Shown in pieces: positions 40,352 to 60,722 of a DNA stretch of 64,000 nt; the stretch's first letter is position 1; every line of letters begins with the position of its first letter. A model generated the notes under the pieces. It ran no database searches. It had not been told where the DNA came from and saw only the letters and a list, made by a program, of their open reading frames with translations. The translations under genes were made by a program, and so were the position numbers. Location: the NCBI GenBank assembly GCA_017534885.1, contig JAFXVR010000038.1:1-64000 (forward strand), written 5' to 3'. The stretch is from Clostridia bacterium. Its GTDB lineage: Bacteria > Bacillota > Clostridia > Christensenellales > Aristaeellaceae.

Positions 40352-41635
40352 ATGATGAGAGCGCCCCAGCCCGTGTGTATTCCCATCGGTGAGCGCGCGG
40401 CGGAAGTCATGGTTCCCAACCTGGTGAAGGTGGTGGAGCCGCCCCGGGTGCCCGGTGTGCCGGACCGTCGGGCGGAAGTCCGCCGTGCCCTGGACGCGCC
40501 CATCGGCAGCCGTTCCCTGCGGGAGATCGCCCGAGGGCGGCGTCAGACGGTGATCGTCGTCAACGACATCACCCGGCCCTATCCAGGTCAGCTGATGGTG
40601 GAGGAAATTGTGAAGGATCTGGCGGAAGCCGGCATGGCTGATGACCAGATCAGCCTCCTCATCGCCTACGGCCAGCACCGGGAGAACACGCCCGATGAGC
40701 TGAAAGCCATGCTCGGCGAAGAACTTCTTCGCCGCTTCAGGGTGGTTCACCACCATGCCGGCATTCCGGAGGAGAACATCACCATCGGTTATACCGCCGG
40801 CGGTGTGGAAGTATCTGTCGACCGCTTCTACATGGAAGCCGACCTCAAAATAATCACCGGCTGCATCGCGCCTCACCAGTTCGCGGGCTTCTCCGGCGGG
40901 CGCAAAAGCGTCATCCCCGGCATTGCGGGCATCGAGGCCGTCAAGCGGCATCATTCTTTTCCCATCCGTCCTGAGAAGGTATCTCTGGGTATTCTGGAGA
41001 ATAATCATTTCCATCTAGAGGCGCTGGAAGCCGCCCGCATGACAGGCGTGGACTTCATCGTCAATTCAGTGGATAACGCGGAGCGGGAGCTGGTGGCCTG
41101 CGTGGCCGGCGATCTGGAAGCCGCTTTCCATGCGGGGGTTGAAGTATCCCGCAGGGTCTGGACAGTGCGCATTCCCGTCCGGCCGAAGGTCGTGATCGTC
41201 AGCCCCGGCGGCTATCCCCGGGATTTCGACCTGCACCAGTCCCAGAAGGCTATCGGCTGCTCCGAGCTGCTTCTGCCGGACGGCGGCGGCCTCATCCTCT
41301 GCGCCGAGTGCCGGGACGGGGCGGGCAAGCCGGGCGAGCTGCTGAAAAAGGCAGCCAGCCCCGATGAGGTCATCGACGATTTCCTGAAGAACGGACTCAA
41401 GCCCAACGGCAACGGCAAGGCTTACATGTTGGCCCGCGCCGCCAGGCGCTACACCATCGCCCTCGCCGGGAGCCGGATTCCCCAGTCCGACCTGCGGGAG
41501 ATGTTCCTGGACGGCTATGACACCGTCGAGGAAGCCATCGCGGTCATGCTGAAGCGGTTCGGCCCGGACGCGCCGATCCTCGTGGTGCCCCACGCATCCG
41601 AAGTCATTCCACTGATCGAATCAACCGACGAATGA
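40352..41635 (+). CDS. LarA-family nickel-pincer-dependent racemase/epimerase
   Basis: The 427-residue protein keeps the hallmarks of lactate racemase LarA. VVHHHAG holds the first histidine of the Ni site. APHQFAGFSGGRKSVIPGI contains the second histidine and the lysine that binds the pyridinium cofactor. A further pair lies in VKRHHSF. LarA relatives racemise lactate, malate and other 2-hydroxyacids. The cofactor makers LarB, LarC and LarE are not in this window and must lie elsewhere if the enzyme is active. CGGAGG lies 5 nt before the ATG. Confidence 0.85.
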   Translation: MMRAPQPVCIPIGERAAEVMVPNLVKVVEPPRVPGVPDRRAEVRRALDAPIGSRSLREIARGRRQTVIVVNDITRPYPGQLMVEEIVKDLAEAGMADDQISLLIAYGQHRENTPDELKAMLGEELLRRFRVVHHHAGIPEENITIGYTAGGVEVSVDRFYMEADLKIITGCIAPHQFAGFSGGRKSVIPGIAGIEAVKRHHSFPIRPEKVSLGILENNHFHLEALEAARMTGVDFIVNSVDNAERELVACVAGDLEAAFHAGVEVSRRVWTVRIPVRPKVVIVSPGGYPRDFDLHQSQKAIGCSELLLPDGGGLILCAECRDGAGKPGELLKKAASPDEVIDDFLKNGLKPNGNGKAYMLARAARRYTIALAGSRIPQSDLREMFLDGYDTVEEAIAVMLKRFGPDAPILVVPHASEVIPLIESTDE

Positions 41636-42930
41636 GGCAGACAGATATGAGCGGAAATCATGAGAACGTCAACGCCCTGCTGCGTGACATCCCCATTCCG
41701 AAGATGTACAGGGTTCGCCAGATCTTTGACACCGCCCGCCTGGAAGACCCAGCGGCAGCCCTGCGGGAAGAACTGAACCGTCCCGGAATCAGGGAGCGGG
41801 TGAAGCCCGGCATGTCCATCGCCGTCACGGCGGGCAGCCGGGGTATCGACAACATTGTGCTCATTTTGCGGGAAACCGTGCGCTTCCTGCAAGAAGCGGG
41901 CGCCAATCCCTTTATCATCCCGGCCATGGGCAGCCACGGCGGCGCCACGGCGGAAGGGCAGGTGGCCATTCTGGAGAGTCTGGGCATCACCATCGAAAGC
42001 GTCGGCTGCCCCATCCGCGCCACCATGGAGGTGGTGAATCTCACCCATCTGGCGGACGGCACGCCTGTGCGAATGGATCGGTATGCCTATGAGGCGGACG
42101 GCGTTGTGGTCGTCAACCGGGTCAAGCCCCACACCGGCTTCCGCGGGCGCTATGAGAGCGGCCTGTTTAAGATGATGACGGTAGGCCTTGGCAAGCAGAA
42201 GGGCGCTGAGCTGACCCACGGCCGCGGCCGCCTGCGCATGGGCGAGACCATCGAAATGTGCGGCAACGCCTATCTGGATCGCGCAAAGATCCTCTTCGGC
42301 GTCGCCACGGTGGAAAACTCCTTTGACAAGACCTGGAAGCTGGCCGCGCTCACCCCGCAGGAGATCCGGGAGCAGGAGCCCGAGCTTCTGCTCAAGGCCC
42401 GGGATCTGCTGCCCAGCCTGCGCCTTCAGTACGCAGATGTGCTGGTGGTGGACACCATGGGCAAGAACATCAGCGGCACCGGCATGGATACCAATATCAC
42501 CCGCTCCTATACCCACGGCTACGGCATCAGCCGGGAGGGCCGGGCCAAGCGCATCGCTGTGCTGGATCTGACAGACGAAAGCCACGGCTCGGCGGTGGGC
42601 ATCGGCCAGGCGGATGTGACCACCCAGCGCATGTTCGAGAAGATCGACTTCAACACCACCTATCCGAACCTGCTGACCTCCGGCGGCACGGACAGCGCGA
42701 AAATCCCCATGGTGCTGGACAATCAGCGGCTGGCCATTCAGGCGGCCATCAAGACATCAGCGGGCAGTGACCCGGAGCATGTCAAGCTGATCCGCATCCG
42801 GGACACCCTCCACATCACCGAAATCGAGGTCTCGGAGGCTTTCATCGAGGAAGCCCGGAAAACCGAGGGGCTGGAAGTGCTGGAAGGCCCCTTCGAGCTG
42901 GCCTTTGACGAGAACGGCAACCTGTTCTGA
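41632..42930 (+). CDS. LarA-like DUF2088 family protein, second paralog
   Basis: The 432-residue protein belongs to the wider LarA/DUF2088 superfamily (AVTAGSRGIDNIVLIL, AMGSHGGATAEGQ). It has VKPHTGFRGRYESGLFKMM where LarA has the cofactor-binding HFAGFSGGRK motif. A histidine and a lysine are kept at roughly corresponding places, but cofactor binding cannot be confirmed. The ATG at 41632 overlaps the preceding stop (ATGA); an ATG at 41647 has a slightly better ribosome site. The tandem LarA-type pair suggests two racemisation or epimerisation steps, or one active and one accessory protein. Confidence 0.8.
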   Translation: MRQTDMSGNHENVNALLRDIPIPKMYRVRQIFDTARLEDPAAALREELNRPGIRERVKPGMSIAVTAGSRGIDNIVLILRETVRFLQEAGANPFIIPAMGSHGGATAEGQVAILESLGITIESVGCPIRATMEVVNLTHLADGTPVRMDRYAYEADGVVVVNRVKPHTGFRGRYESGLFKMMTVGLGKQKGAELTHGRGRLRMGETIEMCGNAYLDRAKILFGVATVENSFDKTWKLAALTPQEIREQEPELLLKARDLLPSLRLQYADVLVVDTMGKNISGTGMDTNITRSYTHGYGISREGRAKRIAVLDLTDESHGSAVGIGQADVTTQRMFEKIDFNTTYPNLLTSGGTDSAKIPMVLDNQRLAIQAAIKTSAGSDPEHVKLIRIRDTLHITEIEVSEAFIEEARKTEGLEVLEGPFELAFDENGNLF

Positions 42931-45933: not shown

Positions 45934-48513
45934 TCACTCCGCCGCCAGGCTCTCCGTCCAGTACGCCTGATTGTACACATCCGTCAGCCGGTAGGTGACC
46001 AAAGCCTTCTGGCCTTCGGGCAGCCAGACGTCGCTGACGGCCATCGGCCCGCTCACGGTCAGCGGCCGGCCCATCCTGTAGCTGTCGTCGTACACGCCCG
46101 AATAGGTGTAGTAATCGCACAGCAGGATGATTTCGTCCCCGTCGGCGAGCTCCGTGATATTCTTGGCCACCGTGTCGGTCTCCCCTTCCCTGTAATCGGT
46201 CTGGGCGCCGACCACGGAGCCATAGCCCTCGCTGTCAAAGAACACCAGCAGGCGCACCCGCTCCCCGTTGAGCAGAGCGGGGATGTAACCTACCACCGTG
46301 CTGTCTTCCTTATCATAGAGGTGATAGTAGGGCACAAGTTGTCCGTCGATGGCCAGCCAGGTGCGCTGCATATCGATCACCAGGTTGCCGTCCTGATCCC
46401 AGGAAAAGGTGTTGTCCAGGCCCAGGTCAATATATCCTTCGCCGTCGTCGATAAAGAGGTTGCGGTCGACGCTGTGCACCAGCGACCAGTCCCGCTCGCT
46501 CATGGCCAGCACCACATCGCCCGCGTCGTTCAGGCTGAAGCGCATGCTGTCGCTGATGCGGTTGTCCGTCACCAGGCTGATGATGTCCTCGTTGCTGATG
46601 GCGCGTCCTCCGAAGAGGAAGTCCATGCTGGAGGAGGATGAGCCGCCGCCCAGGAGCACGCTCAGCAAGCTGGTCAGGTCATCATCCCCCACGCCGTATG
46701 CGCCGGTCGCCCCGCCGGAGAGGGAATAGTACGGGGAGTGAGAGCCGCCCATGGCTGTCTGGCCGCTGGACTGCACGCTGGCAAAGGCGCGGATGCAGTC
46801 GCTGTAGCTCTCGTCCAGGCCGATGGCGTTGTAGGTGCTCACCGCCTTGTTGACGGTGCTGGTCTTCTGGTAGGGGAAGTATACCGACACACCATATGCG
46901 TTGGACATGGTGGAGCGATTGTACTTCACCGCGCTCCGCAGCGTGTTCGCCAGGTTCTCGCCTTCCTCTGTGCCGGTCTTGAGGGCCAGGTCGGTCAGGT
47001 CCACCTGATCGATGCGGCTGGAGCTGGCAAACTCGCGGCTTCCCGCCCGGGCGTTGGAGATGGTGTTGTAATCCTTGGCGGCAATCTGGTCGCTGACCGA
47101 CCGGCTCCAGGCCGTCAGCGCCTCCGGCACGGTGTGCTGCACCTCCGCCAGGTCGATCACGCTGAGGGTGGTGTCCTGCCCGCGGCACTGGGAAGCGCAG
47201 GCCGAGGTGAACCCGTCGCAGATCATCTTGCCCAGGTCGAGGGTATCAATGGAGGTGTCGCGGCCCAGCGCCGTCAGCCAGTCCGTGTAATACCAGCCAA
47301 TGCCCGGCTCGCTCTCCTCGGAGGCGATCAGGTAATCGCCGTACTCCGCGCAGACCAGGGCTGTCTCCACCGTGGCCATGAGGCAGGCGTCAAAGCCGAT
47401 GATGTCAAACTTCACCCCTGCGTTTTTCAGCGCGGTGTTGATGCCGGCCAGAGACATGGCGCCTGAGGACTTGTATTTTTCATCATAGCCGTAGCCGCTC
47501 ACCGAACCGCCGCCGTGATCCCAGAAGATCAGCATATTGCGGCTGGCCGGGTAATTGCTGGCGCAGTATTTGATGAAGCGGGTCAGGGTCGCCGGGTTGG
47601 TCATCGCGTCGCTGCCGTCATTATCCACAAGGCGCTGGAGTTTTCCGCTCGCCACCCGGTAAATCTGGTTGACGGAGGAGGAAATGCCTTGCACATGCCA
47701 GGAGGAGCAGCCGCCGGTGTACACAATCACCTGCACATTGTCCCCATAGCTCGCCTTGGTGATCTCCTGCAGATCCCGGGACGCCATGCCGGAGCGGCTC
47801 TCCAGATCCGTGCCGCACATGTAGATCATCAGGGTAACGGTATCCTTGCCACTGCCCTTCAGCCGGGTATACTTCTCCCGGGAGCCGGGCGCCACTTCCC
47901 GGTTGAGGGCGGTGGAATCCGTGCCCGCCCCGGACGCCACCGAGCCGGACGCGCCGCTGAACAGGCTGTACCAGCTGTTGCCGCCGTAGCCGGAGGGCTT
48001 GGCGGTCGCCTTGGGCGTGGCCGTGGGTTTCGCGGTTTTCTTTGCGGTCGCCTTGGGCGTCGCCGTGGGCTTAGTCGTCTTCTTCGAGGTCGCCTTGGGC
48101 GTGGCGGTCACCCGGGGCGCTTCTGTCGGCCTGGCGGTCACCCGCGGTGTGGCGGTAGCAGTCTCCACATAGACCTGCTGACCGTAGTCCTGCGAGCTGT
48201 TATTGCCGCCGCCAAAGATGCCGCTCAGCCCGCCGCCGCCCAGCAGCAGCACCACCAGCAGGATGATCAGGGGGTTGAAGCCGCCCCCGCCGCTTCCTGT
48301 CGAGCGCCGTCCGCCGCCGAAGCCGGAAGGGCGTCCGCCTGAAAAAGATCCCGAGCCGCCCGCCGTGGGTCTCGAACCTCCGCCTGAGGAGGAGCCGGAG
48401 CTGCCACGGCCCGCGCCGACCGGCCCCGTGCCGAGCCCCTGTCCGTGTTTTTCCGCACCGCTGCCTGTACCCGTGATGTGCTTCTGGCGGCCCGCCGGTC
48501 TGTTTTCACTCAT
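45934..48513 (-). CDS. membrane-anchored clostripain-family (C11) cysteine peptidase
   Basis: The 859-residue protein begins with a Gly/Ser-rich disordered stretch (1-75), then one membrane helix (NPLIILLVVLLL, about 80-95). A Thr-Lys-Pro-Ala linker with repeated TATPKAT units spans about 118-172. The C11 peptidase domain follows, with the catalytic histidine in FWDHGGG (about 331) and cysteine in GFDACLMA (about 374). The last 250 residues are unassigned. The domain should lie outside the cell. The ATG at 48513 follows GAGGAAGGG. Cleavage after Arg is typical of clostripain but is not readable here. Confidence 0.88.
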   Translation of the reverse strand: MSENRPAGRQKHITGTGSGAEKHGQGLGTGPVGAGRGSSGSSSGGGSRPTAGGSGSFSGGRPSGFGGGRRSTGSGGGGFNPLIILLVVLLLGGGGLSGIFGGGNNSSQDYGQQVYVETATATPRVTARPTEAPRVTATPKATSKKTTKPTATPKATAKKTAKPTATPKATAKPSGYGGNSWYSLFSGASGSVASGAGTDSTALNREVAPGSREKYTRLKGSGKDTVTLMIYMCGTDLESRSGMASRDLQEITKASYGDNVQVIVYTGGCSSWHVQGISSSVNQIYRVASGKLQRLVDNDGSDAMTNPATLTRFIKYCASNYPASRNMLIFWDHGGGSVSGYGYDEKYKSSGAMSLAGINTALKNAGVKFDIIGFDACLMATVETALVCAEYGDYLIASEESEPGIGWYYTDWLTALGRDTSIDTLDLGKMICDGFTSACASQCRGQDTTLSVIDLAEVQHTVPEALTAWSRSVSDQIAAKDYNTISNARAGSREFASSSRIDQVDLTDLALKTGTEEGENLANTLRSAVKYNRSTMSNAYGVSVYFPYQKTSTVNKAVSTYNAIGLDESYSDCIRAFASVQSSGQTAMGGSHSPYYSLSGGATGAYGVGDDDLTSLLSVLLGGGSSSSSMDFLFGGRAISNEDIISLVTDNRISDSMRFSLNDAGDVVLAMSERDWSLVHSVDRNLFIDDGEGYIDLGLDNTFSWDQDGNLVIDMQRTWLAIDGQLVPYYHLYDKEDSTVVGYIPALLNGERVRLLVFFDSEGYGSVVGAQTDYREGETDTVAKNITELADGDEIILLCDYYTYSGVYDDSYRMGRPLTVSGPMAVSDVWLPEGQKALVTYRLTDVYNQAYWTESLAAE

Positions 48514-48593
48514 GAACAATTCCCTTCCTCTCTGTTTGCTGCTTGCCGGGGAAGCCCGCCCTCTTCAGGCGTGTCCCCCGGCTGAATCCCGCG

Positions 48594-49974: not shown

Positions 49975-50145
49975 ATGGCATACAAGATTACCGACGCGTG
50001 CATCGCCTGTGGCGCCTGCGCCGCTGGCTGCCCCGTGGAAGCGATCTCTGAGGGCGACGGCAAGTACGAAATCAACGCCGATCTGTGCATCGAGTGCGGC
50101 GCCTGCGCCGACAACTGCCCCGTTGGCGCTCCCGTGCAGGAGTAA
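49975..50145 (+). CDS. 2[4Fe-4S] ferredoxin
   Basis: The 56-residue protein is a classic clostridial ferredoxin with two cluster motifs, CIACGACAAGCP and CIECGACADNCP, in a pseudo-twofold repeat. It carries low-potential electrons in fermentation. GGAGGTGTACC precedes the ATG at 49975. It has its own promoter and terminator and is therefore independent of the antiporter operon that follows. Confidence 0.96.
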   Translation: MAYKITDACIACGACAAGCPVEAISEGDGKYEINADLCIECGACADNCPVGAPVQE

Positions 50146-50247: not shown

Positions 50248-50276
50248 TTGACTTTAATCCCCTGTGGTTGTAAAAT
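50248..50276 (+). promoter_or_regulatory. promoter of the Mrp/Mbh-like operon
   Basis: TTGACT (50248-50253), a 17-bp spacer and TAAAAT (50271-50276) give a leader of about 75 nt before the TTG start of the first subunit gene. Confidence 0.75.
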
Positions 50277-50359: not shown

Positions 50360-50836
50360 TTGTTCATTCTGCTGTTTGTCTTCTGGCTGCTGCTGAACGG
50401 ACGCTTCACGGTGGAAGTCGCCGTTACCGGCGCGGTCATCAGCCTGCTGATCTGGCTGCTGTCCTGGCGCTGCATGGGGCTCACTCCCCGAAAGGAATGG
50501 GCGCTTTTCCTGCGCCTGTGGAAGTGGCTGGGCTATCTGGCCTTCCTGGCCGGACAGGTGATTCTCGCCGGCGTGCAGGTGATCCGGCTGATCTGGTCGC
50601 CCACTCTGGTGGCGGAGCCTGTTCTCTTTACGGTGCGCACCCGGCTGAAGACCCGGCTGGGGCGCGTCAGCCTGGCCAATTCCATCACCCTGACCCCCGG
50701 CACCATCACTGTCTCCCTCCAGGACGGTCGCCTGCTGGTGCACGCCCTGGACACCGACATGGCGCAGGGAATCGAGGGCGGCGAGATGGAAAAGCGGCTC
50801 CTGGCCGTGGAGGGAGGTGCGTCTCCCGATGCCTGA
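50360..50836 (+). CDS. mnhE: Mrp-type antiporter subunit E (MnhE / MbhA)
   Basis: The 158-residue membrane protein begins FILLFVFWLLLNG and carries the usual MnhE C-terminal domain with SLANSITLTPGTITV and the HALDTD motif. The start is taken as TTG at 50360, 7 nt after GGGGAGGA. This matches the family length; the longer open frame upstream includes promoter sequence. First gene of the cation/proton antiporter operon. Confidence 0.9.
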   Translation: MFILLFVFWLLLNGRFTVEVAVTGAVISLLIWLLSWRCMGLTPRKEWALFLRLWKWLGYLAFLAGQVILAGVQVIRLIWSPTLVAEPVLFTVRTRLKTRLGRVSLANSITLTPGTITVSLQDGRLLVHALDTDMAQGIEGGEMEKRLLAVEGGASPDA

Positions 50837-51188
50837 GAGCAAGCTGGCTGAAACCGCCGCCGCGTCCCCGGCGCCGCCCTGGGAAGCGCTTTTCACCATT
50901 GCCGCCATCGCCGTCGGCGTTTTGATGGCGCTCTGCCTGCTGCGGGCCATCTCAGGCCGGCGCACCGCTGACCGCGTCATCGCCATCAACATGCTGGGCA
51001 CCCATACGGTCATCGCCATCGGCCTCCTGGCTCTCATCAAGCAGGAGGGCTATCTCATAGACGTCGCCCTGATCTACACCATGCTGTCCTTCTTGGCGGT
51101 GGTGGTGCTTTCCCGCTTGAGCGTGGGAGCCGCCCGCGCTGCGAAAAACCGCGATCAGTCCGGAGAGGAGGAAGCGGAAGATGCTTGA
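50829..51188 (+). CDS. mnhF: Mrp-type antiporter subunit F (MnhF / MbhB)
   Basis: The 119-residue protein has three membrane helices and the family stretch RRTADRVIAINMLGT followed by YLIDVALIYTMLSFL. The ATG at 50829 lies 11 nt after GGAGG; an in-frame GTG at 50817 overlaps the ribosome site. It overlaps the end of the subunit E gene by 8 nt. Confidence 0.9.
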   Translation: MPESKLAETAAASPAPPWEALFTIAAIAVGVLMALCLLRAISGRRTADRVIAINMLGTHTVIAIGLLALIKQEGYLIDVALIYTMLSFLAVVVLSRLSVGAARAAKNRDQSGEEEAEDA

Positions 51189-51534
51189 GTGGGCGCGTTT
51201 TGTGCTGTCCGCCCTGCTGCTGGCCCTGGGCCTGTTCGTCCTGGCCTCCGGTGTGCTGGGCGTGTTCCGCTTCCGGCAGACCCTGAGCCGGGTACATGCC
51301 GCCGCCCTGGTGGATACGCTGGGCATCGCCTCCATGTTCGCGGGGCTGATCGTGGCGGAAGGTTTCACCCCGGCCTCCCTGAAGCTGCTGGCGGTGGTCG
51401 CTTTTCTCTGGCTGACCAGCCCGGTGTCCTCCCACCTGATCGGGCGCATGGAGGTAACCGTCAACGACGCTCTTGAAAAGGATATGCGGGTGGACGACCC
51501 AGAGGCTGTCCGCCGGGAAAAGGAGGGGGAATGA
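51181..51534 (+). CDS. mnhG: Mrp-type antiporter subunit G (MnhG / MbhC)
   Basis: The 117-residue protein has three membrane helices with the typical FRFRQTLSRVHAAALVDTLG and LWLTSPVSSHLIGR. It overlaps subunit F by 8 nt and the next gene by 4 nt, so the small subunits are translationally coupled. Confidence 0.9.
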   Translation: MLEWARFVLSALLLALGLFVLASGVLGVFRFRQTLSRVHAAALVDTLGIASMFAGLIVAEGFTPASLKLLAVVAFLWLTSPVSSHLIGRMEVTVNDALEKDMRVDDPEAVRREKEGE

Positions 51535-51806
51535 TGCAGGCGCTGCTGATTCTGCTGCTTGTTCTCGTTTTGGCCTGCGCGCTGGCCGTGGCCTTTACCC
51601 GGGATCTGCTGACCTGTGCCGTGGTCTTCATGGCCCAGTCCCTGATGCTGGCGCTGATCTGGGTGCTGCTGGAATCCCCTGACCTGGCCATCACCGAGGC
51701 CGCGGTGGGCGCGGGCGTGGACAGCCTGCTGCTCTTTGCGGTGCTCAAGCGAATCGGCGCCATCGGCCCGGGAAAGGGGGAGCGCCATGGCCCGCGTGAG
51801 AAATGA
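51531..51806 (+). CDS. MbhD-like subunit (DUF4040)
   Basis: The 91-residue, three-helix protein matches the MbhD/DUF4040 segment that forms part of the C-terminal region of MrpA in fused systems. The conserved stretch is ESPDLAITEAAVGAGV. As a separate gene it mirrors the archaeal membrane-bound hydrogenase operon. Two adjacent ATGs (51531 and 51534) follow AGGAGGGGG. Confidence 0.88.
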   Translation: MMQALLILLLVLVLACALAVAFTRDLLTCAVVFMAQSLMLALIWVLLESPDLAITEAAVGAGVDSLLLFAVLKRIGAIGPGKGERHGPREK

Positions 51807-52761
51807 CTTTGAAGGCCGCCGCTGGCAGCGCTTCCGCGCCTGGCTGAACGAGGGCGATACCTCCCTGGACAGTCTGCTGATGGACGCGGTGGACGGACGC
51901 TCCTCCGCCCCCCAGCCAGCGCCGTCTGCGCCGGAGAGCGCTGATCCGGGCGCGGTCAACCACCTGCCCCTCAGCGCGGTGCAGGCCCGGCGCGCCCGGG
52001 CGGAGAAATTCAGCCGGGGACTGTACCGGACGCTGGCCGTGCTGATCTGCTTCGGGCTGATCGGGGTGCTGCTGGCCACCGCCGCCGCCCTGCCGCCCTT
52101 CGGCAACCCGGACAATCCGGTGCACAACGAGGTCTCCCGGCGCTATATCGAGCAGGGCATGGCGGAAACCGGTGCGGTCAATGTGGTGGCCGGCATGATT
52201 CTGGATTACCGCGCCTTTGACACCCTGGGCGAGAGCAATGTGCTCTTCACGGCAGCCTGCGCGGTGCTGATTCTCCTGCGGCTGGGCGTATCCGACCGGG
52301 TGCGCCGGTGGGAGCGGGATCTGGACGCCCGCCTGTATGAGCCGCAGAACGACGCCATCCTGCAGACCCTCGCCCGTTTCCTGACACCCATGGCGCTGCT
52401 CTTCGGCTTCTATATCGTGCTGAACGGCCATCTCTCCCCCGGCGGCGGCTTCTCCGGCGGCGCGGTCATGGGCGCGGGGCTTATCCTGTACCTGAACGCT
52501 TTCGGCTATGAGAAGACCGCCCGCTTCATGAACTACCGCGTGTTCCAGACGGCCTCCTGCGCCGCCCTGACATTCTACGCGGCGGCCAAGAGCTATTCGT
52601 TCTTCACCGGGGCCAATCATCTGCCCTCCTTTATCAACGCCGGCATACCGGGCATGCTCTTCTCCGCCGGCCTCATCCCCTACCTGAACATCGCCGTCGG
52701 CCTGGTGGTCTGCTGCACCATGTACGCCTTCTATACCCTTTTCCGAAAGGGGGACATGTGA
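51787..52761 (+). CDS. MbhE-MnhB fusion subunit
   Basis: The 324-residue protein joins three parts. First is a soluble N-terminal extension (about 1-75) not found in usual subunits. Next is an MbhE-like part (about 80-155) with NPVHNEVSRRYIEQG and NVVAGMILDYRAFDTLGE. Last is a MnhB part with GHLSPGGGFSGGAVMGAG. MbhE corresponds to the end of MrpA, so this chain replaces the MrpA tail plus MrpB. The ATG at 51787 follows AAGGGGGAG and overlaps the MbhD-like gene by 20 nt. Confidence 0.88.
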   Translation: MARVRNDFEGRRWQRFRAWLNEGDTSLDSLLMDAVDGRSSAPQPAPSAPESADPGAVNHLPLSAVQARRARAEKFSRGLYRTLAVLICFGLIGVLLATAAALPPFGNPDNPVHNEVSRRYIEQGMAETGAVNVVAGMILDYRAFDTLGESNVLFTAACAVLILLRLGVSDRVRRWERDLDARLYEPQNDAILQTLARFLTPMALLFGFYIVLNGHLSPGGGFSGGAVMGAGLILYLNAFGYEKTARFMNYRVFQTASCAALTFYAAAKSYSFFTGANHLPSFINAGIPGMLFSAGLIPYLNIAVGLVVCCTMYAFYTLFRKGDM

Positions 52762-52763
52762 GC

Positions 52764-53129
52764 ATGAGCCTCCACAATATCGCGGAGATCGCCGCCATCG
52801 CCCTCTTTGGCGTCGGCCTGACGCTGCTGATGATGAGCCGCAACCTGGTCAAAAAGGTCATCGCCTTCGACATGACCGACTCGGCGGTTTTCCTCTTTCT
52901 GGCGGCCAAGGGTTATATCAGCGGCCGCCGCGCCCCCATCATCGAGAATGGCGTTCAGTCCATGGAAGCCTACATCAACCCGATTCCCGCCGGACTGGTG
53001 CTGACGGGCATCGTGGTGTCCGTGGCCTGCTCCGCGGTCATGCTGTCGCTGTGCCTGCGGCTGTACCGGCGCTATCACACCCTCGACCTGGACGAAATCA
53101 CTGCCCTGGCGCGGAAGGAGGAGGACTGA
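52764..53129 (+). CDS. mnhC: Mrp-type antiporter subunit C (MnhC / NuoK-like)
   Basis: The 121-residue protein has three membrane helices of the NuoK/MnhC family, with GLTLLMMSRNLVKKVI and NPIPAGLVLTGIVVSVA, a hallmark of this subunit. ATG 52764 lies 10 nt after AAGGGGG; a GTG at 52758 is a less likely start. Confidence 0.9.
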   Translation: MSLHNIAEIAAIALFGVGLTLLMMSRNLVKKVIAFDMTDSAVFLFLAAKGYISGRRAPIIENGVQSMEAYINPIPAGLVLTGIVVSVACSAVMLSLCLRLYRRYHTLDLDEITALARKEED

Positions 53130-53130
53130 G

Positions 53131-54630
53131 ATGTCCCTGGCGCTCTGGCAGTCCATCCCCCTGGCCTGTGTGCTGCTGCCCCTTGGTTCCGCCGCCCTGA
53201 CAGCCTTCCTGCCCGGCCGCTGGGCCCGGCGCTGGTGTCTGCTGGCGCTGGCGCTCATCACCGGGCTGAGCGCGGTCTTCGTGCTGCGCATCTGGTCTTT
53301 CGGCAGGAGCTACACCTATCCCATGGGCCACTATCCCGCTCCCTGGGGCAACGAGCTCCGGGCCGGCCCGCTGGAAGCCGCGGCGGGGCTGGTCTTTGCC
53401 CTGGTCATGCTGCTCTCGATGTTAGGCGGCCTGGGCTGGCTGGACAGGCACATCGCGGAGGAAAAGCACGCCCTGTACTGCGCGCTGATGCTCCTGCTCT
53501 GCGCTTCCCTGCAAGCGCAGGTCTACACCAACGACCTGTTCACCGCCTATGTGTTCATTGAGATCATGACCTTGGCCGCGGCGGTGCTGATCGCCGTGCG
53601 CTCCAGCGGGCCCGCCCTGCTGGCCGCCACCCGCTACATGATCATGAACCTGATCGCCTCCGCCCTTTTTCTCCTGGGGGTCATCCTGCTCTATGACCTC
53701 ACCGGCCATCTGCTGATGGAGCCGATTCACATCAAGGTGCAGGAGCTGGCAGCCTCGGGCGCCTACCACCTGCCGCTGACGGTGGTCGTGGCAGTCATGG
53801 CTTCCGGCCTGGCCATCAAGAGCGCGCTGTTTCCCTTCCACACCTGGGTGCCCGGCGCTTACGGCACCTCGACGCCCGCCTCGGCGGCGGTGCTCTCGGG
53901 GCTGGTCAGCAAGGGCTATATCTTCCTGCTGCTGAAGGTCTTCCACCGGGTGATCGGCCTTGAAACCATCGCGCAGACCGGCATCGGGGATGTGCTGCTG
54001 TTCTTCGGCCTCGCAGGCATGATCTGCGGCTCTGTGGCGGCCCTCAGCCAGTGCGACCTGCGGCGGATGCTGGCCTGGTCCAGTGTGGCGCAGATCGGCT
54101 ACATCTTCGCGGGTCTCGGCCTGGGCACGGAAGCCGGTCTGAGCGCGGCGGTCGTCCACATGCTGGCCCACGCCGCCTGCAAATCCCTGCTCTTCATCTC
54201 CGCCGGCGGGCTGTATACCGGCGAAAGCGGCGATACCGATTTCAGCCGTCTCTCCGGCGCGGCGCTGTCCGCCCCCCTGGCCGGGGCAGGCTTTACCATC
54301 GGTGCCCTGTCCATTATCGGGCTCCCTTTCCTGGGCGGTTTCACCAGCAAGCTGGCCCTGGCTCAGGCTGCGGCTGCCATCGGCGGACCCGGCGGCTGGG
54401 CGGTACTCATTTGCCTGATCCTCTCCACCCTGCTGAACGTTCTCTACTTCTTCCGCGCCCTGCTGATTCTATGGAAGCGCGGGGAAACCGCCCCCGGCCA
54501 TCCCCCGCTGACCCACAGGACCGCGTCCGGTCTCGCCGTGACCGCCCTCTCCCTGCTGAACTTCGCCATCGGTGTCCTCGCCGTGCCGCTGCTCCAACTG
54601 GTGCGCAGCGGTCTGGGCCTGCTCGACTGA
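53131..54630 (+). CDS. mnhD: Mrp-type antiporter subunit D (first ND2/4/5-like subunit)
   Basis: The 499-residue protein has about 14 membrane helices and the proton-channel residues of the family: the glutamate in YVFIEIMTLAA, and lysines in IKSALFPFHTWVPGAY and SGLVSKGYIFLLLK. Later come CDLRRMLAWSSVAQIGYI and GLPFLGGFTSKLAL. It completes the E-F-G-MbhD-MbhE/B-C-D set. GGAGGAGGACTGAG precedes the ATG. Confidence 0.92.
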   Translation: MSLALWQSIPLACVLLPLGSAALTAFLPGRWARRWCLLALALITGLSAVFVLRIWSFGRSYTYPMGHYPAPWGNELRAGPLEAAAGLVFALVMLLSMLGGLGWLDRHIAEEKHALYCALMLLLCASLQAQVYTNDLFTAYVFIEIMTLAAAVLIAVRSSGPALLAATRYMIMNLIASALFLLGVILLYDLTGHLLMEPIHIKVQELAASGAYHLPLTVVVAVMASGLAIKSALFPFHTWVPGAYGTSTPASAAVLSGLVSKGYIFLLLKVFHRVIGLETIAQTGIGDVLLFFGLAGMICGSVAALSQCDLRRMLAWSSVAQIGYIFAGLGLGTEAGLSAAVVHMLAHAACKSLLFISAGGLYTGESGDTDFSRLSGAALSAPLAGAGFTIGALSIIGLPFLGGFTSKLALAQAAAAIGGPGGWAVLICLILSTLLNVLYFFRALLILWKRGETAPGHPPLTHRTASGLAVTALSLLNFAIGVLAVPLLQLVRSGLGLLD

Positions 54631-54657
54631 ACCGATTCCGCTTGACAGGAGGCCATC

Positions 54658-56130
54658 ATGCTGTACCTGCTCGTTCCCGTCTTCTTCCCCGTGCTCTGCG
54701 CCCTGCTGGTGGGTCTTGTGCCCGCCTTTGAGCAGTCCCGTCCCCGCAAGTGCCTCGTCAGCGTCACCCTGCTGCTGAACGCGGCCATGCTGCTGCCGGT
54801 GCTGCTGGGCGGAGAAGGCACCTTAGAGCTCTTCCGCTTCTCAGACAGCCTGCCGGTCTTCCTCCGGGTGGACGGCACGGGCAAGGTTTTCGCGGCGCTG
54901 ATCGCCCTGGTCTGGGCGATGGCCGGCATCTATTCCTTTGAATACATGGAGCACGAAGGCCACCTGCAGCGCTACTACGCCTTCTACCTGTCCACCCTGG
55001 GCGTGCTGATGGCCCTGTGCTTCGCCGGCTCCATCGTGACCTACTACATGTGCTATGAGCTCATGACCCTGCTCACAGTGCCGCTGGTCATGCATGAGAT
55101 GAGCAAGGAAGCCGTGGCGGCGGGCATCAAGTATCTGATTTACTCGGTCTTAGGCGCGTCCCTGGTGCTGCTGGGCGTCTTCATTCTCTCGCCCTATGTC
55201 AGCAGCTTCTCCTTTGTTCCCGGCGGTGTGCTGGACGCGGCAAAGGTCTCGGGGCACGAGAGCAGCCTGCTGATCGTCGTCTTCCTGATGCTGGTGGGCT
55301 TCGGCACCAAGGCGGGCATGTTCCCGCTGCACGGCTGGCTGCCCACGGCCCATCCGGTGGCGCCCTCCCCTGCCTCGGCGGTGCTCTCGGGCATCATCAC
55401 CAAGGCGGGCGTGCTGGGCATCCTGCGGCTGATCTACTGCTTTGTCGGCGCGGACTTCATCCGGGGCACCTGGGTGCAGACAGCCTTTATGTCGCTGACC
55501 CTCTTCACGGTCTTCATGGGCTCGCTGATGGCCTACAAGGAGGGCCTGCTGAAGAAGCGGCTGGCCTATTCCTCCGTGTCGCAGGTCTCCTATGTGCTCT
55601 TCGGCCTTTCAACCCTGCATCCCCTCGGCCTGACCGGCAGCCTGCTGCACGTCATCGCCCACAGCCTCATCAAGGACACCCTCTTCATGTCCGCCGGCGC
55701 GATCATCCACAAGACCGGCAAAAAGCGGGTGGACGAGCTGACCGGCATCGGTCGGCAGATGCCCGTTGTCATGTGGTGCTTCACCCTGGTCTCCGTGGGT
55801 CTGGTGGGTATTCCGCCCTGTCTGGGCTTTGTGTCGAAGTGGTACCTGGCGCAGGGCGCCCTGGGCATGGATGGCGTGGCGGGCTTCTTCCGCTATCTCG
55901 GCCCGGCGGTATTGCTGATTTCCGCCCTGCTGACCGCCGGCTACCTCATCACCATCTCCATCAAGGCCTTCTTCCCGGGAGAGGACGCGCCTGATCTGGA
56001 GAAGGCTGAGCCCACTCCCGTGATGCTGGTGCCCATGCTGATCCTCACCGCCCTGTCCGTGCTGCTGGGGCTCTTCCCTGCCGGGCTCATCCAGTTCTTC
56101 AGCGGGATCGCCGCCGCGCTCATCCCCTGA
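54658..56130 (+). CDS. second ND2/4/5-like antiporter subunit (MnhD family)
   Basis: The 490-residue protein is another MnhD/NuoM-type proton-translocating subunit. It has the glutamate in CYELMTLLTVPLV and lysines in TKAGMFPLHGWLP and SGIITKAGVLGIL. AYKEGLLKKRLAYSSVSQ and PPCLGFVSKWYLA follow. It is clearly different from the first copy, so it is not a recent duplication. AGGAGG lies before the ATG. An extra subunit of this kind is not part of a standard Mrp complex. Confidence 0.9.
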   Translation: MLYLLVPVFFPVLCALLVGLVPAFEQSRPRKCLVSVTLLLNAAMLLPVLLGGEGTLELFRFSDSLPVFLRVDGTGKVFAALIALVWAMAGIYSFEYMEHEGHLQRYYAFYLSTLGVLMALCFAGSIVTYYMCYELMTLLTVPLVMHEMSKEAVAAGIKYLIYSVLGASLVLLGVFILSPYVSSFSFVPGGVLDAAKVSGHESSLLIVVFLMLVGFGTKAGMFPLHGWLPTAHPVAPSPASAVLSGIITKAGVLGILRLIYCFVGADFIRGTWVQTAFMSLTLFTVFMGSLMAYKEGLLKKRLAYSSVSQVSYVLFGLSTLHPLGLTGSLLHVIAHSLIKDTLFMSAGAIIHKTGKKRVDELTGIGRQMPVVMWCFTLVSVGLVGIPPCLGFVSKWYLAQGALGMDGVAGFFRYLGPAVLLISALLTAGYLITISIKAFFPGEDAPDLEKAEPTPVMLVPMLILTALSVLLGLFPAGLIQFFSGIAAALIP

Positions 56131-56169
56131 ACAGTCTGTCTCCCGACTGCCTGAATCCATTCCAAGGCG

Positions 56170-57648
56170 GTGATTCGCTTGCGGCTCATGCTGCCCCTGC
56201 TCCTGCCCCTGGTGTCCGGCGCGCTGCTGCCCCTGTTCCGCTTCCGCCGGGAGGGCTGGCGCAACGCCTACGTGCTGTTTTTCACCCTGCTGACCTCCGT
56301 TTTGACCCTGTGGCTGCTCCTCTCGGGGGAGGCCCTCAGCCTCAGCGTGGCGGAGATCTATCCTGGCTTATGTCTTGCCTTCCGTCTGGATGACGCCTCC
56401 CGGCTTTTCGCGGGGCTGGTGGCCGTTCTCTGGCCGCTGTGCGTCCTGTACGGCTTTGCCTACATGCGCCATGAAGAGCGCCCTAACACTTTTTTCGCCT
56501 GGTACACCATGTCCTACGGTGTCACCCTCTGCTGCGCCCTATCGGCCAATCTTTTCACCCTGTACATCTTTTACGAGTGCCTTTCCCTGGTCACCCTGCC
56601 CCTGGTCAGCCACAAGCAGGACAAGGCTTCCATCCGCGCCGGCCGGCTCTACATAGCCTATACCATCACCGGGGCGGCCCTGGGCTTTATCGCCATGGCG
56701 GTGGCCATGCAGTACGGCCTGACGCTGGATTTCACCCCCGGCGGCGTGCTGACCGGCGAGGCCGCGCAGGCCAGCGCTGAGCTTCTGCGCTGGGTCTGGC
56801 TGCTGGCCTTCCTCGGCTTTGGCGTCAAGGCGGCGGTGCTGCCCCTTTCCGCCTGGCTGCCGGCCGCCTCCGTAGCGCCCACGCCCGTCACCGCCCTGCT
56901 GCACGCGGTGGCCGTGGTCAACACCGGCGCTTTCGCGGTGATGCGCGTCACCTATGGCACCTGGGGCACCGAACTCCTGAAGGGCAGCGTTCCGCAGGGC
57001 ATTGCGCTGGGGCTGAGCTGCCTCACCCTTCTGTACGCCTCCGCCACCGCGGTGCGGGAAAACCACCTCAAGCGCCGCCTGGCCTGGTCCACCGTGTCCA
57101 ACCTGAGCTACATGCTGATGGGCCTTTGCCTGATGACGGCGGACGGCGTGACCGGCGCGCTGGCGCATCTGGTCTTCCATGGGCTGATGAAGATCACCCT
57201 CTTCCTCTGCGCCGGCGCCATCCTGACTCAGACCGGTCTCAACCATGTGCGGGAGATGGGCGGCCTCCACCGGGTGATGCCCCTGACCTGCGCCCTGTTT
57301 GCCATCGCCTCGGTGGCGCTGGTGGGCACCCCGCCGCTGGTGGGCTTTGTGAGCAAGTGGCAGCTGCTGACCGCCGCCGCGGATCTGGGCGGCTGGATGG
57401 GTCTGCTCGCCATAGCCAGCGTGATCCTGTCCTCGGTGCTGACAGCCATCTATCTCTTCTCTGCCGTAGGCGTCATGTGCTTCCGGCCCGCCGGCCCCGC
57501 TCTGGGATCAGAACCGCTTCAGCGCCGGGAAGCGCCCTGGGAGATGTGGCTGCCGCTCTGCCTGCTGACACTCTCCCTGCTGGCCCTCGGCGTCTGGTCT
57601 TCTCCCCTGCTGAACCTGATGCGCGCCGCTTCTGTATCCCTGTTCTGA
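56170..57648 (+). CDS. third ND2/4/5-like antiporter subunit
   Basis: The 492-residue membrane protein has the glutamate in FYECLSLVTLPLV and the first lysine in VKAAVLPLSAWLP. At the place of the second lysine (TKAG in its neighbours) it has AVVNTGAF. This suggests a changed or lost proton path. The start is GTG 56170 or TTG 56179; the second has a better-spaced AAGGCGG. It follows the second copy by 39 nt. Confidence 0.87.
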   Translation: MIRLRLMLPLLLPLVSGALLPLFRFRREGWRNAYVLFFTLLTSVLTLWLLLSGEALSLSVAEIYPGLCLAFRLDDASRLFAGLVAVLWPLCVLYGFAYMRHEERPNTFFAWYTMSYGVTLCCALSANLFTLYIFYECLSLVTLPLVSHKQDKASIRAGRLYIAYTITGAALGFIAMAVAMQYGLTLDFTPGGVLTGEAAQASAELLRWVWLLAFLGFGVKAAVLPLSAWLPAASVAPTPVTALLHAVAVVNTGAFAVMRVTYGTWGTELLKGSVPQGIALGLSCLTLLYASATAVRENHLKRRLAWSTVSNLSYMLMGLCLMTADGVTGALAHLVFHGLMKITLFLCAGAILTQTGLNHVREMGGLHRVMPLTCALFAIASVALVGTPPLVGFVSKWQLLTAAADLGGWMGLLAIASVILSSVLTAIYLFSAVGVMCFRPAGPALGSEPLQRREAPWEMWLPLCLLTLSLLALGVWSSPLLNLMRAASVSLF

Positions 57649-57720
57649 AGCGAATCCGTACCGTGAGGCCAAAGCCCTGCCTGAACCACGGTCACACAAC
57701 CCCCACCAAGGAGGCCCGCC

Positions 57721-59988
57721 ATGCTCCTGCCACTCTTGTGTTTCCTGCCGATGCTGATGGGCGCGGTCTGTTATGCCGCCGGCCGTTTTTCGGCGCGGGC
57801 GCGCTGGACGCTGATGGTGCTGACCGACGCGGCGGCGCTGGCGGGCTGCATTGCGCTGTGGGGCGGCGACACCCGCTTTGTGTGGGATGGCTTCTGCGGG
57901 CTCGGACTTACTCTGCGGGCGGACGGTTTCCGCTCCCTGTACGCCGCGGTGGCGGCCTTCATGTGGCTGATGACCGGCCTGTTCTCCCCGGAATACTTTG
58001 CCCACTATCACCGGCGCGGCCGCTATGTGTTCTTCAACCTGATGACCCTCGGCGCGACCCTCGGCGTCTTCCTCTCGGACGACCTGTACACCACGCTGAT
58101 CTTCTTTGAAATCATGTCCCTGACCAGCTACACCTGGGTGGCGCAGGAGGAAACCCCCGGCGCCATGAAGGCCGCGGGCACTTACCTGGCGGTGGCGGTC
58201 ATCGGCGGACTGACCACCCTGATGGGTCTCTTCCTGCTCTGGCGGGAGCTGGGCACCCTGTCCTTTGACGAGATGCGGGCTGCCATGCAGACCGGCCAGA
58301 TGAACCACAGCCTGGTAACCGCCGCTTCCTGGCTGACCCTCTTCGGCTTTGCGGCCAAGGCGGGCATGTTCCCGGTGCACATCTGGCTGCCCAAAGCCCA
58401 CCCGGTGGCGCCCGCGCCGGCTTCCGCCCTGCTGTCCGGCGTGCTGACCAAGACCGGCGTCTTCGGGGTGATCGTCATTACCTCCCGGCTGATGGCGGAC
58501 AACGAGGCCTTCGGCAAGCTGCTGCTGATCTTTGCCGCCGTCACCATGTTCCTCGGCGCTTTGCTGGCCCTCTTCTCGGTGGATCTCAAGCGAACCCTCG
58601 CCTGCTCCTCCGCCTCCCAGATCGGCTTCATCACCGTGGGGCTCTCGATGGCTCTGCTGCTGGGCGAGGAGGGCTCGCTGGCGGCCTACGGCGCACTGGA
58701 GCACATGGTCAACCACTCCCTGATCAAGCTCTGCCTCTTTCTCTGCGCCGGCGCGGTGTTCATGAACCTCCACCAGCTGAACCTCAACGACATCCGGGGC
58801 TTCGGCCGGGGCAAGCCGGTGCTGCACATCGCCTTCCTGATCGGCGCCCTGTCCATCGGCTGTGTGCCGCCCCTGGGCAGCGGCTTCAATTCCAAATCGC
58901 TGATTCACGAGGGCATCCTCGAGTACATCGCCCACCTGCAGCACCACAGCCAGCCCTGGGGAATCTACAAGGCGCTGGAGATTCTCTTCCTGATATCCGG
59001 CGGCCTGACCCTCGCCTACATGACCAAGCTCTACATCTGTCTTTTCTGGGAGAAGCATCCCACCCGTCAGGCGGAGTTTGACGCGAAAAACAAGACCTGC
59101 ATAAAGCCGCTGTCCGCCGCGGTGCTGCTGCTGACCGCCCTGCCCCTGCCCTTCCTGGGCCTGTTCGGGGCGCAGCTGCTGACCCCACTGGCGGAGCTTT
59201 CGATGCCCTTCTTCGGTCAGGAAACGCTGCACCACGCCATCCATTACTTCTCCGGGGAAAACCTGCTGGGCGCTGCGGAATCTCTGGCCATCGGCGCGGC
59301 GGTGTATCTGGGCGTGGTGCGACCACTGCTGATGCGCCGCGAGGCCGATGGCACCCGGGTCTACGTCAACCGCTGGCCGGCCTGGCTTGACCTGGAGCTG
59401 GGCTACCGGGCGGTGCTGGGCTTCCTGGTGAAGGCGCTTCACACGGTGGTGCGTTTCATCGCGGGCATCCCCGATTCCCGCCTCATCCGGGTATGGATTC
59501 CCGCCGCTGTCTGCGCCGTCACCCGCTTCTTCGAGCGCATCCCCGAGTCGAGGCTCGTTACCCGCTGGATTCCCGGCCTGATCAGCGCTGTCACCCGCTT
59601 TTTCTCCGGCCTGCCCGAGTCCTGGGCCGTCACATGCTTCCTCCCGACCGCTGTCACCGCCGTCTTCCGCTTTGTGGCGGAGATTCCCGAGCGGCTGGTG
59701 GTGCTGGCGCGGCGCTCCGTGCTCTCGCCCCTCCGGCAGCGCCGTCAGGCTCCTGTGGGCACCCGCGCCACCTGGACATTAGGCTGCGCCCTGAACCGGC
59801 TGGCCGCAAAGCTCAACGCCTCTGGGCGCTTCCGCCGCCTTTTCCGCACCGATTATGAATATGTGCTGGACGAGGAGCGGCGCGTCCTTCAGGATGAGTC
59901 CAGCGTGATCACCGGCTCCGTGTCCTTCGGCCTGCTGCTGATGGTCATTGGCCTGCTGGGCACGGTGCTCTACCTGCTGCTTCACTGA
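57721..59988 (+). CDS. fourth, extended ND2/4/5-like subunit with tandem C-terminal repeats
   Basis: The 755-residue protein has a full antiporter-like core (about 1-480) with FFEIMSLTSYTWVAQE, AKAGMFPVHIWLPKAH and SGVLTKTGVFGVI. Next is a long tail with four imperfect 24-residue repeats at about 575-672, each built as V-x-RF-x-x-(I/L)P-(E/D)-(S/R) and ending in proline or a small residue. A Cys-containing domain and a final membrane helix (SFGLLLMVIGLLGTVLYLLL) complete the chain. The tail may act like the lateral helix of NuoL or anchor a partner. AAGGAGG precedes the ATG. Confidence 0.87.
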   Translation: MLLPLLCFLPMLMGAVCYAAGRFSARARWTLMVLTDAAALAGCIALWGGDTRFVWDGFCGLGLTLRADGFRSLYAAVAAFMWLMTGLFSPEYFAHYHRRGRYVFFNLMTLGATLGVFLSDDLYTTLIFFEIMSLTSYTWVAQEETPGAMKAAGTYLAVAVIGGLTTLMGLFLLWRELGTLSFDEMRAAMQTGQMNHSLVTAASWLTLFGFAAKAGMFPVHIWLPKAHPVAPAPASALLSGVLTKTGVFGVIVITSRLMADNEAFGKLLLIFAAVTMFLGALLALFSVDLKRTLACSSASQIGFITVGLSMALLLGEEGSLAAYGALEHMVNHSLIKLCLFLCAGAVFMNLHQLNLNDIRGFGRGKPVLHIAFLIGALSIGCVPPLGSGFNSKSLIHEGILEYIAHLQHHSQPWGIYKALEILFLISGGLTLAYMTKLYICLFWEKHPTRQAEFDAKNKTCIKPLSAAVLLLTALPLPFLGLFGAQLLTPLAELSMPFFGQETLHHAIHYFSGENLLGAAESLAIGAAVYLGVVRPLLMRREADGTRVYVNRWPAWLDLELGYRAVLGFLVKALHTVVRFIAGIPDSRLIRVWIPAAVCAVTRFFERIPESRLVTRWIPGLISAVTRFFSGLPESWAVTCFLPTAVTAVFRFVAEIPERLVVLARRSVLSPLRQRRQAPVGTRATWTLGCALNRLAAKLNASGRFRRLFRTDYEYVLDEERRVLQDESSVITGSVSFGLLLMVIGLLGTVLYLLLH

Positions 59989-59996
59989 GGATCATT

Positions 59997-60722
59997 ATGG
60001 CCAACATGCTTTCCTGGTATACCTCCCGGAAACGCGCCCAGGACTGGTTCTGCTGGAACAGTCTGGCCCGCTTGGCCCTGCCCGTGGCTGCCGGGGCCCT
60101 GCTGCTCATCGCCGGCCTGGAGCTGGCGGGCGGCGGCTGGCGGGGGCTCGAAAACCTCTTCACCAAAGGGCTGGGAATCACACTCCTCTGGATGCTGCTG
60201 ACGCTGGTGATCGGAGCCTGGCTGCTCTTCACCCTGCAGGGCACGGACGTTCTGGAGTGCGTGCTGGACGGCAAAGGCGCGCATCTGCGCATCTTCCTGC
60301 CCGCGCCGACGCCGCTGAAGCTGCTGCTGCGGGGGCTGCGGCCCGACAAGCAGACCGCCTACCCCGGCGAGCCCGTACAGACCGCCTCCCTGGACATCGC
60401 CTGGAAGGACATCCGGCGGGTGCAGCTCTGGCCCGAGAAGGGCGCGGTGCTGCTGTACGCGCCGCACTTCTGGCTCAGGGTTTGGCTGCCCTGCACCGCT
60501 GACACCTGGCAGCCCGTTCTGCAGGAAATGCAGTCCCGCCTGGGGAAGAAGAAGCAGGTCTCCCTGCCCGCCTGCCTCCGCCAGGATCAGGCAGCCAGGC
60601 CCGCGAGGAAGTCCTCCGCCCGATCTTCCGCGTCCGTTCCCCCGGCCTCTGACCACCTGATGGAGGACATCCGCCGGATGAACGCCGAGGCCGAGAAGAA
60701 TGACCAATCCGCCGAAACCTGA
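59997..60722 (+). CDS. membrane protein of unknown function closing the antiporter operon
   Basis: The family is not recognised. The 241-residue product has two membrane helices (about 26-45 and 58-80). A cytoplasmic beta-rich domain (about 85-170) resembles a bacterial PH-like module, with IAWKDIRRVQLWPEKGAVLL. The C-terminal tail is charged and disordered. The ATG follows the preceding stop by 8 nt, so it belongs to the same operon and may be an assembly or regulatory factor of the complex. Confidence 0.7.
   Translation: MANMLSWYTSRKRAQDWFCWNSLARLALPVAAGALLLIAGLELAGGGWRGLENLFTKGLGITLLWMLLTLVIGAWLLFTLQGTDVLECVLDGKGAHLRIFLPAPTPLKLLLRGLRPDKQTAYPGEPVQTASLDIAWKDIRRVQLWPEKGAVLLYAPHFWLRVWLPCTADTWQPVLQEMQSRLGKKKQVSLPACLRQDQAARPARKSSARSSASVPPASDHLMEDIRRMNAEAEKNDQSAET

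Follow-up and report, generated by a model that had tools for sequence, protein, structure and literature searches.

The ten-gene operon analyzed here probably encodes one redox-free, multisubunit cation/proton antiporter of the Mrp (CPA3) kind, a membrane complex with four proton channels instead of two. The operon occupies positions 50360-59988 of the forward strand in the 64,000-nucleotide stretch of Clostridia DNA under study (the window), and is composed of mrpE, mrpF, mrpG, mbhD, a fusion of mbhE and mrpB, mrpC, and four genes for complex-I-type antiporter subunits, which we name D1, D2, D3 and L. The gene content and order, their conservation, the channel residues, the absence of redox genes from the window's genome and the origin of D3 from D2 are established directly. 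The operon and its immediate flanks comprise the following features:

50248..50276 (+): promoter-like site before mrpE, TTGACT-17-TAAAAT, with 10 of 12 consensus matches; weak, as the region holds 3 such sites against 1.5 expected
50360..50836 (+): MrpE/MbhA-like subunit (PF01899, 1.8e-29); TTG start behind GGGGAGG, frame open from 50264
50817..51188 (+): MrpF/MbhB-like subunit (PF04066, 4e-14), aligned to the solved MrpF, MbhB and MbsB
51181..51534 (+): MrpG/MbhC-like subunit (PF03334, 8.9e-21) with an invariant helix-breaking Pro
51531..51806 (+): MbhD-like subunit, first part of the MrpA C-terminal region (PF13244, 7.6e-17); key Glu 97% conserved
51787..52761 (+): MbhE and MrpB fused, as in MbsE (PF20501 and PF04039; 6u8y_E, 4.7e-23); FDTLGE invariant
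52758..53129 (+): MrpC/MbhG/NuoK-like subunit (PF00420, 7.8e-19; 6u8y_G, 1.6e-20)
53131..54630 (+): D1, antiporter subunit at the MrpD/MbhH position (PF00361, 1.1e-48; 6u8y_H, 3.8e-44); channel residues conserved
54658..56130 (+): D2, second antiporter subunit (PF00361, 1.2e-53; 6cfw_H, 3.5e-53); channel residues invariant in 79 sequences
56170..57648 (+): D3, third antiporter subunit (PF00361, 6.7e-54), derived from D2 by duplication according to the tree, the TM8 channel residue being His
57721..59988 (+): L, terminal antiporter subunit of 755 aa (PF00361, 8.1e-51); AlphaFold2 model with MrpA and NuoL as best structural matches
59997..60722 (+): X, two-helix membrane protein outside the conserved unit, starting 8 bp behind L

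The order of Pfam families on the forward strand (MNHE, MrpF_PhaF, PhaG_MnhG_YufB, MbhD, MbhE and MnhB in one protein, Oxidored_q2 of the MrpC/NuoK type, and four Proton_antipo_M proteins) bears out the Mbh/Mbs-like arrangement and the four proton-channel subunits that a preliminary description of this DNA had read from the sequence. That description had also noted the lack of a full-length MrpA, and none is present in the operon: the parts of MrpA are split over separate genes, with L as the ND5-like part carrying the lateral helix and mbhD and mbhE as the C-terminal part. The mbhE+mrpB fusion is likewise present, but is not specific to Mbh, since MbsE of the archaeal MBS complex has the same arrangement and is the best solved match (6u8y_E). 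Adjacent genes of the operon overlap or are separated by at most 72 bp, and the D1-D2, D2-D3 and D3-L gaps are free of all the terminator-like sites detected. Translation of MrpE most likely begins at the TTG at 50360, judging by the GGGGAGG motif in front of it. The first three antiporter subunits are of similar size (D1 499 aa, D2 490, D3 492), and L is considerably longer (755).

The same ten genes are found in the same order in 18 of 20 loci fetched from related genomes, a survey that the preliminary description had proposed; the two remaining loci are interrupted by contig ends. A named scan returned 63 loci, approximately 53 of them with the ten genes in order, from rumen and gut Clostridia, Lachnospiraceae, Oscillospiraceae-labelled genomes and one spirochaete. 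The Lachnospiraceae carriers include Hungatella hathewayi WAL-18680 (L128) and a Lacrimispora isolate (L166). Such conservation of gene order is far beyond chance. After the removal of repeats, approximately 74 distinct four-subunit operons remain, distributed over several families of Clostridia. Around the window's family, L has a match in 26 of the 60 relatives tested, some of which lie outside that family, and its presence is thus patchy; in an even sample of the class, strong L matches occur in 29 of 391 genomes.

The residues that line the proton channels are preserved in all four antiporter subunits. Across 76-85 orthologues of each of D1, D2, D3 and L, there is little or no variation at Glu-TM5, Lys-TM7, Lys-TM8 (His in D3) and Lys-TM12. 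Most of the residues named for the sodium path of Mrp (PMC7419157) are kept as well: the MbhD Glu in 97% of sequences, and the Asp and Glu of the MbhE FDTLGE motif, the MrpG Pro and the MrpE Pro and His in 100%. The exceptions lie in MrpF and MrpC. Asp35 of MrpF, described as invariant and important in Mrp, is replaced by Asn at the equivalent position of the 50817-51188 product in 98% of 73 orthologues, and the histidines H37 and H40 of MrpC are not kept, an Asp (97%) standing at the place of MBH Asp37 and MBS Glu37. Because of these substitutions, the cation path may differ from that of Mrp in ion or rate. The nearest solved structures of the small subunits are those of MBS and MBH.

Subunit L is predicted to consist of a 14-helix antiporter core, a helix 15, a nearly continuous helical stretch of approximately 109 residues (558-666) and a last membrane helix. 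Its AlphaFold2 model has a mean pLDDT of 87.5, yet only ~58-79 across most of the lateral helix. The best structural matches are MrpA and NuoL (VIA Z 45-43), and MrpA 7qru_A superimposes with a VIA Z of 45.3 and an rmsd of 3.0 over 560 residues. Within the lateral helix, residues ~560-650 form four imperfect repeats of ~24-27 residues that end in IP[DE]S and vary in copy number among the relatives. Published work on MBH, MBS and complex I relates a longer lateral helix to a larger number of antiporter subunits (PMC7684303). A similar trend is seen in L: the tail behind Lys-TM12 has a median length of 315 residues in 73 four-subunit operons versus 276 in 13 three-subunit operons (214 in E. coli NuoL), with overlapping ranges (255-381 versus 233-315) and a p-value of 1.6e-5 that ignores relatedness. 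A second lineage repeats the difference, with tails of 349-370 residues in the four-subunit and 300 in the three-subunit form. Given the overlap and the relatedness of the sequences, we regard this as a trend only and reject the length of the lateral helix as an exact ruler of subunit number.

Several relatives retain part of the antiporter row and none of the small subunits. Four such genomes were found, carrying D2-D3-L (G447, locus L133), D2-L (G448, locus L158, and G396, locus L177, the latter genome 99% complete) and L alone (G002, locus L075, a 97% complete genome from the same genus as the window); no MnhB and no further antiporter subunit is encoded anywhere in them. Their sequences fall inside the four-subunit clade, and these forms are therefore reductions, at least two of them independent. 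In all four genomes L ends before the lateral helix and the last membrane helix, leaving a tail of 163-198 residues. In the orphan L proteins the set of four channel residues is complete, whereas the orphan D2 of G396 has lost its Glu and the orphan D3 of G447 both the Glu and the TM7 Lys. The partial sets of antiporter subunits may act on their own in these relatives. At L133 and L177 the orphan modules are located behind the same ROK-type kinase and DivIVA-like genes.

The existence of stand-alone D2-D3-L, D2-L and L in genomes without MnhB brings up the idea that the operon specifies two complexes, an ordinary small Mrp (E-F-G-D-E/B-C-D1) and a separate ion channel or antiporter made of D2-D3-L or D2-L. 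We consider this division improbable. The tail of L is lost exactly where the cation half has been lost, while the lateral helix and the last membrane helix are present in every complete operon, which fits a lateral helix that fastens L to the other subunits and can be dispensed with after their loss. The strictly kept gene order and the short intergenic gaps likewise argue against two complexes.

A single antiporter complex could still be the membrane arm of an electron-driven enzyme onto which a partner encoded elsewhere docks, be it a non-homologous redox module, Rnf or a soluble ferredoxin enzyme. The Mbh/Mbs-like gene order and the closeness of the small subunits to the solved MBS and MBH invite such a reading, as do the frequency of Rnf among the carriers and, in the window's species, a small 2x[4Fe-4S] ferredoxin gene at 49975-50145, 215 bp upstream of the operon. 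The search for electron input speaks strongly against it, and we judge an electron-driven arm very improbable. The preliminary description had seen no redox subunit, and family searches, on which all genome-wide absences here rest, found none at the locus or in the window's genome (3.36 Mb, 93% complete), which contains exactly four antiporter-domain genes, all within the operon. PF00346 (NuoD/hydrogenase large-subunit type), PF01058 (NuoB), PF00146 (NuoH) and PF00374 (NiFe hydrogenase) have no match in this genome, so that a hydrogenase located elsewhere and able to dock, for which the same description had proposed a search, is rejected together with a complex-I-type partner. PF10070 (DabA) has no match either, and a DabA-type carbon pump is rejected on this ground.

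The absence extends to other carriers. PF01058 and PF00146 are found in 0 of 22 operon-carrying genomes and PF00346 in one, many of the 22 being incomplete drafts in which a single absence means little; the joint absence of the redox families across the carriers is strong evidence. The one PF00346 match (L071, G006:C152) is an isolated gene in a draft assembly, on a contig of 6 kb, and may be contamination. That these searches work is shown by G055 and G059, two further members of the order in whose genomes they recovered true redox operons. No NuoB-, C-, D-, H- or I-type gene stands beside any carrier operon examined, the NuoC and NuoI types having been looked for in the operon neighbourhoods, and none of the intact carrier loci has a redox neighbour. 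The case named beforehand as speaking against a joint complex, extra subunits transcribed apart and served by a redox module of their own, was looked for and not found. The ferredoxin gene is separated from mrpE by terminator-like hairpins and the promoter-like site, and was not found beside the operon in the relatives' loci examined; being unlinked there, it is rejected as electron input. Rnf, a ferredoxin-driven ion pump, is encoded in the window's genome and in 34 of the 37 genomes tested for it. Its frequency is almost equal in genomes that carry the operon and in those that lack it, and we reject it as a linked partner.

The origin of the fourth subunit is found among redox-free relatives with three antiporter subunits. 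In Peptoclostridium acidaminophilum, genes EAL2_RS12435-12475 follow the same E-F-G-mbhD-mbhE-B-C-D1-D2-L order without redox genes, but lack D3 and keep mbhE and mrpB separate. The three-subunit form (D1, D2, L) occurs in nine or more further genomes of the class and is common in other Clostridia. In a maximum-likelihood tree of 80 antiporter subunits, D1 and L each form one line (100/100 for both), and the D2 and D3 of four-subunit operons form sister groups, with 100/99 for the joint clade and at least 100/99 for each subclade; the three-subunit operons contribute one D2 each. The base of the tree is weakly supported, and its long branches (HyfB, MrpD) should not be over-read. Judged from this tree, D3 is a duplicate of D2 that arose inside an already redox-free lineage, and nothing was replaced. 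The preliminary description had proposed that extra antiporter subunits took the place of a hydrogenase half. This is not supported: D3 derives from D2, a single D2 is present in the three-subunit operons, and these redox-free operons of the same order are the closest relatives. The MrpD-like subunit of a rhizobial complex I (L168:8803-10266) also falls within the D2/D3 clade.

Enlargement to four subunits happened more than once. At L165, from Spirochaetaceae, the fourth subunit of the operon is a second D1-type protein, which suggests transfer and independent gain, and at L190 and L191, from other families of the class, the row includes an extra subunit of unclear origin. Three further loci from other families of the class (L193, L195, L197) contain two L-type subunits without D2. 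That D2 and D3 are alternatives for one position, with three channels present at a time and the composition switched by conditions, is suggested by the duplication and by the His at TM8 of D3, but is just as improbable as an electron-driven arm, since every intact four-subunit operon retains the two genes next to each other, both with their channel residues complete, and the L tail is longer in four- than in three-subunit operons of two lineages.

Among known systems, the operon agrees with the subunit definition of Mrp (CPA3): the MrpB, C, D, E, F and G types occur together, all MrpA domains are present in several genes, and there is no redox module. It shares with Mrp all of the small subunits, the MrpD-type subunits, the channel residues and most of the cation-path residues, and differs in having four antiporter-like subunits versus two, no full-length mrpA, an mbhD gene, the mbhE-mrpB fusion and the replacement of MrpF Asp35 by Asn. 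The features of Mrp groups 1 and 2, a full-length mrpA or mrpA' in first place and two antiporter-type subunits, are not found in it. Group 3 collects irregular clusters, of which those with an extra mrpD were reported to have three antiporter subunits (PMC5703873); the operon fits this loosely defined group and exceeds the number reported there. The lone MrpA/MrpD-type Nt-Nha of Natranaerobius thermophilus has Na+(K+)/H+ antiport of its own (PMC5703873), and as a single subunit resembles the orphan L genes, whereas the window encodes a full complex.

The redox-coupled relatives share the membrane architecture and differ in their redox parts. The sulfane sulfur reductase MBS (Mbx) of Pyrococcus furiosus (PMC7684303) has the same membrane-arm order, the mbhE+mrpB fusion, the small subunits closest in sequence and a terminal antiporter subunit with a lateral helix, but combines two antiporter subunits with a redox arm (MbsJ, K, L, N, M) of which nothing is present in the operon; the NuoB/NuoD-like peripheral arm and the MbsM/NuoH anchor that mark MBS/Mbx and Ehr are absent. 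With MBH the operon shares the order mbhA-H, and D2, D3 and L all find their best solved match in MbhH, but MBH has one antiporter subunit and a NiFe hydrogenase, and the window's genome has no hydrogenase module (mbhI-N). Four or five antiporter-like subunits also occur in complex I with extra pumps: the 2M complex I of Nitrospira, the rhizobial green complex I and Complex_I_3 of Manganitrophaceae (PMC9040806). The 2M form is reported to have a longer lateral helix with its extra pump, and the rhizobial complex at L168, with four antiporter-like subunits, is the green complex I (PMC9040806). These enzymes are quinone-linked and carry NuoA-F/H/I, whereas the operon has none of these; of the complex I core (NuoB, C, D, H, I) nothing is found with it, the NuoB, D and H families being absent from the genome. 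The DAB inorganic carbon pump, defined by DabA (PF10070) and a single ND5-like DabB, does not correspond to the operon either. No description of a four-subunit redox-free operon was found in the literature searched, which mostly did not extend to subscription papers (e.g. Chadwick et al. 2018), and an earlier description is possible.

The arrangement of the preferred redox-free antiporter can be laid out by homology. MrpE-F-G-MbhD-MbhE/B-C would probably form the cation half, with D1 placed against MrpC, D2 and D3 next in the row and L last. From there the lateral helix would run back along D3, D2 and D1, anchored by the final membrane helix of L. The small-subunit half would conduct cations (Na+ or K+), and the Lys/Glu channels of D1, D2, D3 and L would conduct protons the other way, with electrostatic coupling passed on between subunits as has been proposed for Mrp. 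We infer the assembly of all ten proteins into one complex, as well as the direction, ion and stoichiometry of transport. As a working idea, each extra channel would add approximately one proton per cation. At approximately four protons per cation the sodium gradient could reach several times the proton-motive force, and even anaerobes whose proton-motive force is weak could maintain a large sodium gradient, with Rnf alongside as the primary pump. A division of labour in which Rnf pumps and the antiporter complex exchanges the two gradients is plausible. We put forward only tentatively the fuller scenario in which a redox-free Mrp was enlarged stepwise, more than once, to four channels, moves approximately four protons per cation versus approximately two, and left orphan D2-L or L, now without the lateral helix, as small stand-alone transporters.

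The number of protons exchanged per sodium in Mrp, and whether each subunit passes one proton per cycle, is unsettled (PMC7419157, PMC7684303). According to the Mrp structure paper, complex I-like enzymes can enlarge the two-channel unit to three or four channels; the operon, by contrast, extends the channel row without any redox part. In complex I-like enzymes, where extra subunits are known, electron coupling complicates measurement. The natural series of three- and four-channel redox-free operons, D2-D3-L, D2-L and L-only forms, some of them in culturable species, makes the proton/sodium question directly testable. The findings also bear on annotation: MbhD and MbhE are annotated as hydrogenase subunits in these Clostridia, and are no sign of a hydrogenase.

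Gene X was counted by the preliminary description as a PH-like membrane protein of the operon, but no gene related to it follows L in the neighbours examined. Its PH-like nature is unproven, as it matches no Pfam family and its single-sequence model is poor (mean pLDDT 59.8). Being neither conserved nor modelled well enough to interpret, X is rejected as a subunit. Further upstream in the window, 45934-48519 on the reverse strand encodes a protein of the clostripain family (C11) in which a long, repetitive stretch rich in Thr, Pro and Lys lies near the N-terminal membrane segment. Two adjacent LarA-like genes (lactate racemase N-terminal domain) are located at 40352-42930, the second of which has a weak match and no match to the C-terminal domain.
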